Positions 2,345 through 5,290 of a DNA stretch of 5,290 nt are shown one piece after another (the first letter of the stretch is position 1; each line of letters opens with the position of its first letter). The translations under genes and the position numbers were made by a program. A model generated the notes under the pieces. It saw only the letters and a list, made by a program, of their open reading frames with translations. It made no database searches and had not been told where the DNA came from. The stretch comes from an uncultured Polyangiaceae bacterium (GTDB taxonomy: Bacteria > Myxococcota_A > Polyangia > Polyangiales > Houyiibacteriaceae), in NCBI GenBank assembly GCA_947258625.1, contig CAMYJN010000214.1:1-5290 (forward strand), written 5' to 3'.

Positions 2345-2363
2345 CGAGCGACGCTCCGTTGAC
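2340..2363. repeat. Imperfect palindrome between divergent genes, overlapping both -35 elements
   Basis: The left arm GTCAACGAGCG (2340-2350) and the right arm CGCTCCGTTGAC (2352-2363) are reverse complements around a central A, apart from one extra C at 2357 or 2356 in the right arm. The outer arms contain the TTGAC cores of the two oppositely directed -35 elements. It may be an operator for a dimeric regulator, or simply the product of two symmetric promoters. It does not resemble the enteric PurR box. Confidence 0.55.
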
Positions 2364-2387
2364 GCTCGCGCGCTCGTCGCGTACACA
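2359..2387 (+). promoter_or_regulatory. Predicted sigma70-type promoter for amidase-glnD unit
   Basis: TTGACG (2359-2364) matches the -35 consensus at five of six bases. A 17-base spacer then leads to TACACA (2382-2387), a weak -10 keeping T1, A2 and A4. Transcription would begin near 2394, just ahead of a purine-rich ribosome site at 2401-2407. If real, it means the TTG at 2359, the only in-frame start codon for the amidase frame, lies in the promoter and is not translated. Confidence 0.42.
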
Positions 2388-3573
2388 CGCGTCCATTCGA
2401 AGAGGGGTAGACACATGGAGTCTCTTTGCGCTCGGGCTGCTGCTTTCCGCCTCGGGCTGCACGGCTGATTCGTCTCCGCGGCGCCAGCAGGAGCTTTCCG
2501 CGCCGTCGGTGGAGCTCGCCGTGCCAACCGACGCTCCAGTTGAAAAGGCCCGGCTGATCCGCATCGACGTGTACGGCGCTGATGCGAAGGAAGCGGCCGG
2601 CGCACGGGTCGTGCTGCTCTTCGAAGGAGCTCCACTGTTCACACAGAAGCAGCTTCCCGCTGAGGGAATGCTGCCGCCTCGTATCGCGATCGAGTTGGAG
2701 GACGTCGAATGGGACGCCAGCGTCCCGGTTTCTCAGGCTGTCGAGCGAGGAGGCCTCCAGCGCGTGCGGCTGGCTACGCCCAACCCCCGCGTCGTCTTGG
2801 ATCTCTATCCGACCGCGACCGGCCGGGTCTTTTTCCTGACCGACCCCTACCGCGTCGTCGTCGACGTCAGCACGGCGCGGCCCTCACGAAAGAAGAGAAG
2901 GCCTCTGGTGGTCCTCGACCCCGGGCACGGCGGTCAGGAACCCGGCGCCGCAAACGATCGATATGGGCTCGTCGAGTCGCAGCTGGCGCTCGAGTTAGCC
3001 GAGCTGGCAGCAGCTAGGTTGCGTGCGATCATACCGCGCTCGCGCGTCATGCTCACCCGGTCGAGCGACGTCGATCTCTCGCTCGAAGAACGTTGCGCTC
3101 AGGCGAACGCGATGGAAGCAGACGTGTTCGTCTCGATCCATCTAAACGCCAGCCCAGAGCAGGTTCGCAAAGGAGGCGTAACCACCTTCGTTTTAGACAC
3201 CACGAACAACCGTCAGGCGCTTCGTCTCGCCGCGCGCGAAAACGGCACGCGTGTCGCCGAGGTGACCGGTATTCAGAGTCTGCTCGCCAAGCATCATCGG
3301 CAGAACCAAGTGAAGGGCTCGCTGACTTTGGCCGGAAAGATTCAGCGCCACACCCTGAAACGCGGCCGCACCGTTCTCCCGAAGCTTTCTGATCGCGGTG
3401 TGCGACGTGCCATGTTCTACGTCTTGGTGGGCGCCCGCATGCCGTCGGTGCTTCTCGAAGCGTCCTTTCTGACGTACGAGCCCGAGGCGCGCGCGCTGAC
3501 CAAGCATCGATATCGCCGCGCCCTCGCCGACGGCATCGCATCCGGCATCGCGTCCTACCTCCTGACTCGATAG
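2359..3573 (+). CDS. AMIN-domain N-acetylmuramoyl-L-alanine amidase (Amidase_3), lipoprotein-type signal
   Basis: This zinc amidase cuts the bond between N-acetylmuramic acid and L-alanine in peptidoglycan, in the periplasm. The N-terminal stretch is basic, then hydrophobic (WSLFALGLLLSASGC), ending in a lipobox-like site at Cys34. Residues about 65-172 form an AMIN domain (RVVLDLYPTATGRVFFLTDPYRVVVDV), which targets the septum or cell wall. The catalytic domain spans 182-404. It has DPGHGG with His190, GLVES with Glu206, SIHLNA with His261 (the three zinc ligands), and VLLEASFL with catalytic Glu367. A helical insertion at about 273-340 corresponds to the autoinhibitory segment of AmiC-type enzymes, so an activating LytM-type partner is likely needed. 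The start is doubtful. TTG at 2359 is the only in-frame start that keeps the signal sequence, but it coincides with a -35-like element, while a good ribosome site precedes an ATG at 2415 in another frame. The function is secure; the N-terminus is not. Confidence 0.93.
   Translation: MTLARSSRTHASIRRGVDTWSLFALGLLLSASGCTADSSPRRQQELSAPSVELAVPTDAPVEKARLIRIDVYGADAKEAAGARVVLLFEGAPLFTQKQLPAEGMLPPRIAIELEDVEWDASVPVSQAVERGGLQRVRLATPNPRVVLDLYPTATGRVFFLTDPYRVVVDVSTARPSRKKRRPLVVLDPGHGGQEPGAANDRYGLVESQLALELAELAAARLRAIIPRSRVMLTRSSDVDLSLEERCAQANAMEADVFVSIHLNASPEQVRKGGVTTFVLDTTNNRQALRLAARENGTRVAEVTGIQSLLAKHHRQNQVKGSLTLAGKIQRHTLKRGRTVLPKLSDRGVRRAMFYVLVGARMPSVLLEASFLTYEPEARALTKHRYRRALADGIASGIASYLLTR
2401..2417 (+). 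promoter_or_regulatory. Ribosome binding site with ATG out of frame to the amidase
   Basis: AGAGGGG at 2401-2407 is the best Shine-Dalgarno-like sequence near the amidase, and an ATG follows at 2415 with ordinary spacing. That ATG reads only 17 codons before a TGA at 2466-2468, because it is one frame away from the amidase. Removing one base shortly after the ATG (for instance from the GG at 2417-2418 or the TTT at 2425-2427) would join it directly to the hydrophobic signal sequence and lipobox. Confidence 0.5.
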
Positions 3574-3621: not shown

Positions 3622-5290
3622 TTGTCGGATGGTTCCAGTCCGGTCGTCGATCTGGGTGGGCTCGCGCCTTCGCTCGGCAAGACCTGCAGCGGATACCTCG
3701 GTGGTTATCGCCGGGCGTTCGAGGACGCCGTGCGCCGAGGAGACCCGGGCGTTGGCACGGCTCGCTCTCATGCCCGCGCCCTCGACGGTCTGCTGAGCGC
3801 TCTCTACTGCGCCTCCGATGCGGCCACGCGGGCGCAGGGTCTGGAGCCGCGCGGGCGCGTCGCTCTGGTCGCGGTGGGAGGCTACGGCCGCTCGACGCTC
3901 GGTCTCAACAGCGACGTCGACGTCGTGTTCCTGTGCGACGACTCGAACGACCCGTTCGTCGGCGCCCTGGCCGAGGGGCTGCTCTACCCACTTTGGGACC
4001 TCGGGGTCGACATCGGTCACGCCGTCCGAAGCGTCGAAGAGACGCTGAGTCTCGCTCGCCAAGACATCCGCACCACCACGACGCTAATCGACTTTCGGCG
4101 TGTCGCTGGCAGTGGCTCTCTGCTCGATCAACTGGAGCGCGGAGCGCGCGAGCAGGTCTTTGAGCCGCACCTGGTCGAGTTCCTTGCCGCGCTGGAGCAG
4201 GACACTGCGACACGCCATCGCCGTTTCGGTGGCAGCCTCTACCTTCTCGAGCCCGACGTGAAGCAGGGGCGCGGCGGGCTCAGAGACATGGACGTCGCCG
4301 AATGGGCCGCAAGAGCACGCTGGGGCGCGAGGGACGAGCAGGACTATGTCCGAACGGGAGCACTCCTCGCTCGCGAGGTTCGGGAGCTCGAAGATGCTGG
4401 CGAGATGCTCTGGCGCGTCCGTAACCTTCTGCACCTGCGCGCAGGCCGTCAGCAAGACCGACTCACCTTTGGCGACCAAGAAGACATTGCGCAGGAGCTC
4501 GGCTTCGTCGATGGCGTCGCGCTCGGTGTCGAGCAATTCATGCAGGCCTATTATCGACACGCTCGCATCGTCGCTTTGACGGCGGAGCGAATGCTCGACC
4601 GCGCTCGACCGCGCAATCGGACTCGAGCCGCCACGTTCCGAAAGCTCGCACATGGGATCGTTTTGGCGGACGGAAGCATCAGCCTCGAGAAGCCTCAACG
4701 GCTCGATGCAGATCCCGCGCTAGTGTTTCGCTTCTACCGACAGGCTCTCCGCTACCACAAGCGGCCCGACCACTCGGCCTTGGACGCGATTGCACGGATT
4801 GCTCCGGACAAGCGTTGGCGTCTCCGACTGCAGGACTCCGAAGAAGCCACGCAGCTCTTCCTGTCCCTGCTCAGCAACATCGATGAGCCGGCGTTCCGCA
4901 GCGGCTCCACCGTTGCTGAGCTCCACGAGGTTGGGCTCGTTTCCGCGATGATTCCCGAGTTCGAGCCCCTGGTCGGTCGCGTCTATCACGACGTGTTCCA
5001 CGTTTACACGGCCGACATTCATGCGGTCAAAGCGCTCGAGCATCTGCAGGCGCTGACCCGAGGTGAGAGCCGCGGCCGGGCGCTCTCGGCTCGCCTAGCC
5101 GCAGAGGCCCCGAGGCGGATTCCGTTGTTTTTGGCGGTCCTCCTGCACTCACTCGGTCGAACGCGGGGTCGGGAGCAAGAGCAAGCGGGCGCGCGCCTCG
5201 CCGAGAACGTGGCGCTTCGATTGGGCCTCGCTCCTGTCGACGCCCAGCACGTCGCTTGGCTCGTCCGTGAGCAGAACTCGCTCTACCGCT
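3622..5290 (+). CDS. glnD: PII uridylyltransferase GlnD with degenerate HD domain, 3' end cut by window edge
   Basis: GlnD adds UMP to PII proteins when glutamine is low and, in the standard enzyme, removes it through an HD domain when glutamine is high. The visible 556 residues cover about two thirds of a typical 890-residue protein. The rest of the HD domain and the two glutamine-sensing ACT domains lie beyond the edge. The nucleotidyltransferase site is intact: GGYGR (86-90) and SDVDVVFL (97-104) with Asp98 and Asp100. Family blocks follow: GVDIGHAVRSVEETL, LEPDVKQGRGGLRDMD, LTFGDQEDIAQELGF, and YHDVFHVYTADIHAV with His467. The HD motif region reads LLHSLGRTRGREQEQ (507-521), lacking the HD Asp and the later Asp-His pair, so uridylyl-removing activity is probably lost. 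The start is inferred as TTG, 3 bases after an in-frame TAA. A GTG at 3730 is a fallback but would cut into the N-terminal helix. No clear ribosome site precedes the TTG. The frame is intact throughout. Confidence 0.93.
   Translation, partial: MSDGSSPVVDLGGLAPSLGKTCSGYLGGYRRAFEDAVRRGDPGVGTARSHARALDGLLSALYCASDAATRAQGLEPRGRVALVAVGGYGRSTLGLNSDVDVVFLCDDSNDPFVGALAEGLLYPLWDLGVDIGHAVRSVEETLSLARQDIRTTTTLIDFRRVAGSGSLLDQLERGAREQVFEPHLVEFLAALEQDTATRHRRFGGSLYLLEPDVKQGRGGLRDMDVAEWAARARWGARDEQDYVRTGALLAREVRELEDAGEMLWRVRNLLHLRAGRQQDRLTFGDQEDIAQELGFVDGVALGVEQFMQAYYRHARIVALTAERMLDRARPRNRTRAATFRKLAHGIVLADGSISLEKPQRLDADPALVFRFYRQALRYHKRPDHSALDAIARIAPDKRWRLRLQDSEEATQLFLSLLSNIDEPAFRSGSTVAELHEVGLVSAMIPEFEPLVGRVYHDVFHVYTADIHAVKALEHLQALTRGESRGRALSARLAAEAPRRIPLFLAVLLHSLGRTRGREQEQAGARLAENVALRLGLAPVDAQHVAWLVREQNSLYR

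Follow-up and report, generated by a model that had tools for sequence, protein, structure and literature searches.

GlnD proteins with a complete uridylyltransferase site and a dismantled HD site in a family of the Polyangiales

The GlnD protein encoded at the end of a contig from an uncultured Polyangiaceae bacterium retains its uridylyltransferase site but little of its HD site, and the residues at these two sites suggest that it probably adds UMP to PII and is unable to remove it. For the whole family to which the genome belongs (f1), we tentatively propose, with somewhat less than even confidence, that a reversible PII switch has been turned into a one-shot, write-only tag that is reset by turnover or by a PII-UMP hydrolase, and that a second family (f9) has likewise split off or dropped its eraser.

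PII uridylylation is usually described as the work of one bifunctional enzyme that both adds and removes UMP. Natural eraser-less GlnDs, if true, would mean that reversal by GlnD is dispensable, would allow the contested role of PII modification to be probed in natural mutants, and would suggest a new PII-UMP hydrolase or dilution as the means of reset. The plain name [protein-PII] uridylyltransferase is attached to several database entries for these GlnDs, a label from which automatic reconstructions are liable to infer a two-way switch. In the titles and abstracts listed, which mostly leave out subscription papers, a natural GlnD lacking removing activity is not described, which is weak evidence of absence.

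A truncated glnD at a contig end

The window (the whole stretch of DNA analysed) is an entire 5,290-bp contig, C214 of the genome bin G000 (3.5 Mb, 80% complete), and ends within glnD. It carries the following features:

2359..3573, + strand: upstream neighbour (context), N-acetylmuramoyl-L-alanine amidase (AMIN and Amidase_3), from domain matches
3622..5289, + strand: glnD, first 556 residues (N-terminal); TTG start, frame open to the contig end; PF08335 E 7.6e-35
3877..3927, + strand: nucleotidyltransferase (uridylyltransferase) site GGYGR...SDVDVV, residues 86-102, with G86, G87, D98 and D100 intact
4180..4590, + strand: GlnD_UR_UTase region (PF08335), from a Pfam match
5011..5028, + strand: first HD-domain metal His retained, ADIHAV (residue 464), H467, from the alignment
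5146..5160, + strand: HD doublet changed to H509-S510 and the Lys of HDxxK to R513 (HSLGR, residue 509), from the alignment
5173..5178, + strand: Asp-His of the GxDH block changed to E518-Q519 (REQEQ, residue 517, nt 5170), from the alignment
5263..5274, + strand: VRQH block changed to VREQ (residue 548), with Q551 replacing His, from the alignment

The minus strand of the window carries genes matching PurN and PurM domains. Full-length relatives from the same genus (g1) have 893-896 aa, counted from the same start, and contig C159 of G000 carries the final 43 residues of glnD; the stretch between the two contigs, which includes the last HD position, was not found in the G000 assembly.

An earlier reading of the window (the original prediction) held that the uridylyltransferase site is intact and that several HD ligands have changed. 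The nucleotidyltransferase (NT) motif GGYGR...SDVD is indeed whole in the window and in all genus sequences examined, and the motifs lie exactly where they had been placed (ADIHAV at nt 5011, HSLGR at nt 5146, REQEQ at nt 5170 and VREQ at nt 5263-5274). As claimed, the site retains H467 and H509 and carries the changes D>S510, H>Q519 and H>Q551. To this list we add K>R513 and the last HD Asp, which falls beyond the contig end in the window and is gone in relatives (V in G005, which is 98% identical to the window; V592 in the full-length relative L036).

Several features place the protein in the GlnD family, of which it would functionally be a one-way variant. The window GlnD has the NT motif GG(x)n SDxD. 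L036 scores 603 bits against TIGR01693, above the cut-off of 519, and the truncated window protein scores 417, below it. C-terminal ACT domains are found in L036 as two matched stretches; the window ends before the ACT part. The complete site H..HD..H..H..D expected of a bifunctional UTase/UR is missing, and the Pfam HD model gives L036 10.6 bits (cut-off 22), compared with 30.5 for the intact GlnD L061 and 45.4 for a gammaproteobacterial GlnD. When the window protein was searched by sequence against solved structures no match was returned, and a fold search yielded tRNA-processing nucleotidyltransferases and GlnE domains and nothing on the HD site.

Loss of the HD site in the genus and family

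The state of the HD site was read from an alignment of 145 GlnD sequences (84 tree-set rows and 61 others), a subset of all matches found; in the wider pool, 171 of the order's 183 genomes and 149 of the phylum's 282 have a GlnD match. In the column numbering of the alignment the HD Asp is D512 (S510 in the window), and the last HD Asp is D594 in L061. The intact comparison set contains 105 GlnDs, namely 34 of the order, a wide sample of 60 that we chose among the listed phylum matches spanning the HD region, four f9 'b' or 'c' copies, two from the basal f1 genus g6 and five outgroup sequences; the GlnDs of G024 and G131 were excluded from both the intact and the degenerate set. By f1 crown we mean the window's family minus g6, which comprises 32 sequences (20 from genus g1 and 12 from other genera).

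The HD Asp is present in all 105 comparison GlnDs. Across the 20 sequences from 19 genomes of g1 it is Ser without exception; H468 and H511 are kept in all 20, H521 and H553 are each replaced by Gln in 19, and V or I replaces the last HD Asp in each of the 18 sequences that have a residue at this position (2 gaps). The genus HD site, dismantled in every sequence examined as the original prediction had claimed for the window, typically retains only H467 and H509 of its six predicted metal ligands. Among the 12 f1 genomes from other genera, the HD Asp is A, G or S and the last Asp is gone in every case, H553 is Gln in 11, H521 is retained in 4 and K515 in 9. The f1 crown as a whole keeps D512 in 0/32 sequences, D594 in 0/30 (2 gaps; the position holds V, I, A or T in f1 relatives), H553 in 2/32 and H521 in 5/32. 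H468, H511 and RRD persist in all f1-crown sequences that cover them, so residual HD function is still conceivable.

A similar picture emerges from the best 120 of 2349 database matches (clusters) to L036, where S510 occurs in 120, Q551 in 118 and Q519 in 112, H467, H509 and D562 are each found in all 120, and the NT residues G86, G87, D98 and D100 are invariant wherever covered. The presence of S510 in 20/20 genus sequences and in all of these 120 best matches, with open frames, agrees with the original view that sequencing error is unlikely. The two g6 genomes (loci L161 and L163; G023 and G049), basal in f1, have V at D594 and retain the other ligands, which is possibly an early step of HD-site loss. 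More distant named loci (L073-L100, five of them the outgroup) keep HD in 28/28 cases. One further locus, L072 from a named MAG, has HA in place of HD.

The losses are concentrated at the site. Counting a column as lost when fewer than 50% of the f1 crown keep it, and taking as reference those conserved at 95% or more among the 105 intact GlnDs, we found that five of 22 HD-domain columns are lost (D512, K515, H521, H553 and D594), compared with 0/20 conserved UT-core columns and 0/5 ACT columns; K515 passes the loss line because genus g1 is heavily sampled. These losses affect 5/7 site columns and 0/15 other conserved HD-domain columns (Fisher p 0.0008; 4/6 and 0/15, p 0.0025, without K515), and the f9 'a' copies lost 6/7 site columns and 1/15 others (p 0.0006); the p-values assume independent columns and are descriptive, since the site set was named once the alignment had been seen. 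In the wide sample of GlnDs that retain HD and the last Asp, 7/60 replace H521 or H553 by Gln and one has a gap at H521, so the His>Gln changes alone are weak evidence.

Metal ligands and predicted structure

In an alignment of the intact GlnD L061 with a full-site stand-alone HD protein (described below), HDxGK, the following His, the xxH block and the TVADLSTTNP Asp (D594) each face their counterpart. The Asp of RRDxxDP (D564) had been considered as the last metal ligand of a 2-His-1-carboxylate site; this assignment was dropped because it is D594 that aligns opposite the last Asp of the intact HD protein. Dinuclear YqeK-type HD phosphohydrolases are reported to have the pattern H..HD..H..H..D, with two extra His between HD and D (PMC8177086). 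Intact GlnDs share these two His and by analogy may bind metals as dinuclear YqeK does, whereas the genus GlnD typically retains just the first two His. AlphaFold2 models (pLDDT 87.7 and 87.6) predict an unbroken helix over residues 511-533 in L036 and a helix broken between 517 and 521 in the intact L061.

Selection on the HD domain

Within the genus, dN/dS is 0.058 for the NT domain, 0.03 for the PF08335 part (the slowest), 0.08 for the HD domain and 0.08-0.10 for the ACT domains, with dS near saturation. These low values suggest that the UT half is guarded and that the HD fold is still maintained. Branch sums for the HD domain (seven site columns removed) relative to the UT core are 2.0 in the f1 crown and 1.24 in f9 'a', and 0.74, 1.19, 0.73 and 0.83 in four intact clades; relative to ACT they are 1.0 and 1.05, and 0.55, 0.93, 0.91 and 0.66. 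Pairwise distances give HD/UT ratios of 2.33 in the genus and 1.45 in other f1-like sequences, against 0.62 and 0.78, and HD/ACT ratios of 0.88 and 0.80, against 0.63 and 0.48. The HD/ACT ratios, together with a slow UT core that accounts for part of the HD/UT ratio, thus point to a modest relaxation of the HD domain.

Degenerate GlnDs in a second family

In f9, all six 'a' copies lost D512, K515, H521 and H553, five lost H468 and D594, and two lost H511; G525 is additionally lost, as is 1/20 UT-core columns (L210). Three f9 genomes (G061, G063 and G031) encode a degenerate GlnD and also one or two GlnDs of another clade with a full HD site (L165-L167, L169, L170, L173 and L031), a possible division of labour between writer and eraser. 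In three others (G062, G065 and G066; 86, 93 and 98% complete) the degenerate GlnD alone was found.

Trees built without the motif columns recover the f1 crown as one clade (SH-aLRT 95 and 92.9 in two trees) and f9 'a' as a separate one (SH-aLRT 100). Parsimony requires two changes for HD-site loss, and the single-clade alternative is not rejected (AU p 0.0545). The two families thus probably lost the same HD residues independently.

PII, GlnD copy number and candidate erasers

PII matches were found in 17/19 genus genomes, including G000 (contig C220), and AmtB is present in 19/19. All 30 PII loci read have Tyr51, and one T-loop string is common to 24 of them, whether or not the lineage has kept the HD site. 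Divergent second PIIs without the T-loop tyrosine were seen in G023 (L213) and G010 (L214).

GlnD occurs once per genome in g1, with three exceptions. G003 carries two distinct overlapping glnD pieces (C89 and C321), perhaps from two strains in one bin; both have a degenerate HD site and match the query at 88-89% identity. For G007 a second match was counted, beyond the matches listed, and the second match in G000 is taken to be its own glnD tail on C159. At E <= 0.001, the g1 genomes yielded no GlnD whose HD site is intact, and no intact second GlnD was seen in f1. The original prediction had offered two readings, a one-way uridylyltransferase or a GlnD paralog with a structural HD domain, and had pointed to a second glnD with an intact HD motif and to PII genes in the same genome as ways of checking. 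The one-way form fits the residues (whole NT motif, dismantled HD site) and a PII with the target tyrosine, which was found; a paralog beside a normal GlnD does not fit this genus, where the intact second copy was not found.

A search of 46 genomes for HD domains (E <= 0.001) revealed no GlnD-like eraser elsewhere in f1. Besides GlnD itself, it recovered a CCA-like stand-alone HD protein, matched weakly (E 1e-4 to 8e-4) in G024 and seven genus genomes. This protein (L224:1487-2407; G000:C259:1943-2860) has a full HD site without an NT domain, and its top family match is a CCA-enzyme model, below the cut-off. It matches (E <= 0.001) in 172/183 genomes of the order, including lineages with intact GlnD; in the 10 f3 genomes the best match is no better than E 5.7e-4. 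This order-wide occurrence led us to drop it as a specific eraser replacement and, together with the CCA-enzyme-like match, leaves it without a tie to PII.

The sampled neighbourhoods (glnD in L047; glnB in L205-L209 and L212) contain no obvious eraser candidate. The nine ORFs around glnD in L047 include amidase, purM-like, TPR and TatD DNase family genes, among others; those near glnB in L205, L206 and L212 include psd, a methyltransferase and a UbiB-like gene, and those in L207-L209 yielded nothing informative. The TatD-family hydrolase (L047:11156-11938) lies 2.5 kb downstream of glnD on the opposite strand.

GlnE is one classical user of PII-UMP. It exceeded the cut-off in 0/19 genus genomes. 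A link between GlnE loss and HD loss was considered and dropped, as GlnE is present in G019, G020 and G022, where the HD Asp is gone, and absent in G030, where it is kept. GlnE is present in 4/5 searched f1 members from other genera.

A proposed write-only mechanism

In characterised GlnDs, NT and HD are reported to be separate sites, the first adding UMP and the second removing it, with glutamine favouring removal (PMC4285133; PMC3480911). By this logic, a GlnD with a whole NT site and few HD ligands should write and not erase; we infer the loss of removing activity from the residues and the HD-domain literature. Bifunctional GlnDs such as those of E. coli and Rhodospirillum rubrum share the NT - PF08335 - HD fold - ACT layout and the intact NT motif; in contrast, the genus enzyme typically lacks four of six predicted HD ligands, and removal is predicted to be absent.

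The HD domain is most likely dead and scaffold-like, as in RelA. RelA[hS] of gamma- and betaproteobacteria, the nearest analogue, is reported to combine an active synthetase domain with an inactive HD domain kept structurally (PMC3153485). RelA is non-homologous, however, and has an active partner in SpoT, whereas the genus shows no intact second GlnD. The HD domain of these GlnDs may persist as a scaffold through which the ACT domains pass information on glutamine to the NT site; continued control of writing by glutamine is suggested by the conserved ACT columns and the kept HD fold. Low glutamine would switch PII tagging on and high glutamine would halt it without reversing it. PII-UMP might then be diluted out by growth and fresh PII synthesis, degraded by proteolysis or cleared by a hydrolase other than GlnD. 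Association of GlnK with AmtB can reportedly track nitrogen status without modification (PMC4274968), so a slow PII reset need not be lethal. Actinobacterial GlnD, a member of the same family, also modifies PII at Tyr51; it is described as adenylylating PII (PMC4285133), in contrast to the uridylylation predicted for the window GlnD.

Alternative explanations

The contig end that falls inside the gene could be taken as a sign of a sequencing or assembly artefact or of a pseudogene, an explanation that is hardly credible and was ruled out by the identical residues across 19 genomes and the 120 best of 2349 clusters, with open frames. It also seems improbable that the HD domain still removes UMP through a metal site rebuilt around the two remaining His, RRDxxDP and further residues. 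Such a site would account for the invariance of H467, H509 and D562 in those 120 matches, the HD dN/dS of just 0.08 and the Gln found at H521 or H553 in some GlnDs with HD and the last Asp. However, no f1-crown sequence that covers these positions has either Asp, D594 and not D564 aligns with the last Asp of the intact HD protein, and the losses of H468 (5/6) and H511 (2/6) in f9 suggest that retention of these His elsewhere may be structural.

We likewise give little credence to a decay of the entire PII-modification cycle that would leave GlnD as a glutamine sensor or relic. The failure of GlnE to exceed the cut-off in any genus genome favours this idea, but the PF08335 part and NT domain are strongly constrained, no conserved UT-core column is lost, and the PII loci uniformly keep Tyr51 and largely share one T-loop. 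A minority possibility that we take more seriously is a cycle that is still two-way, with the eraser outside this HD domain: a second GlnD (as in f9), the stand-alone HD protein, some other hydrolase or the NT site running in reverse. Such a cycle is compatible with the preferred explanation of GlnD itself; the idea draws on the intact-HD GlnDs that accompany the degenerate one in 3/6 f9 genomes and on the full-site stand-alone protein in the genus. Yet an intact second GlnD was not found in f1, the stand-alone protein is spread across the order, and the few neighbourhoods scanned gave no obvious candidate. A GlnD that writes and does not erase is the explanation we prefer for the window protein.

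Other unusual GlnDs

Two further GlnDs show different patterns of erosion. L202 (G024) has Q for the first His, keeps HD and has V, R and I at later ligands. L199 (G131:C5:99788-102379) is a mirror case, a lone GlnD on a long branch whose NT motif is without the first Asp (GGID) and whose HD site retains five of six ligands, with V for the last Asp.
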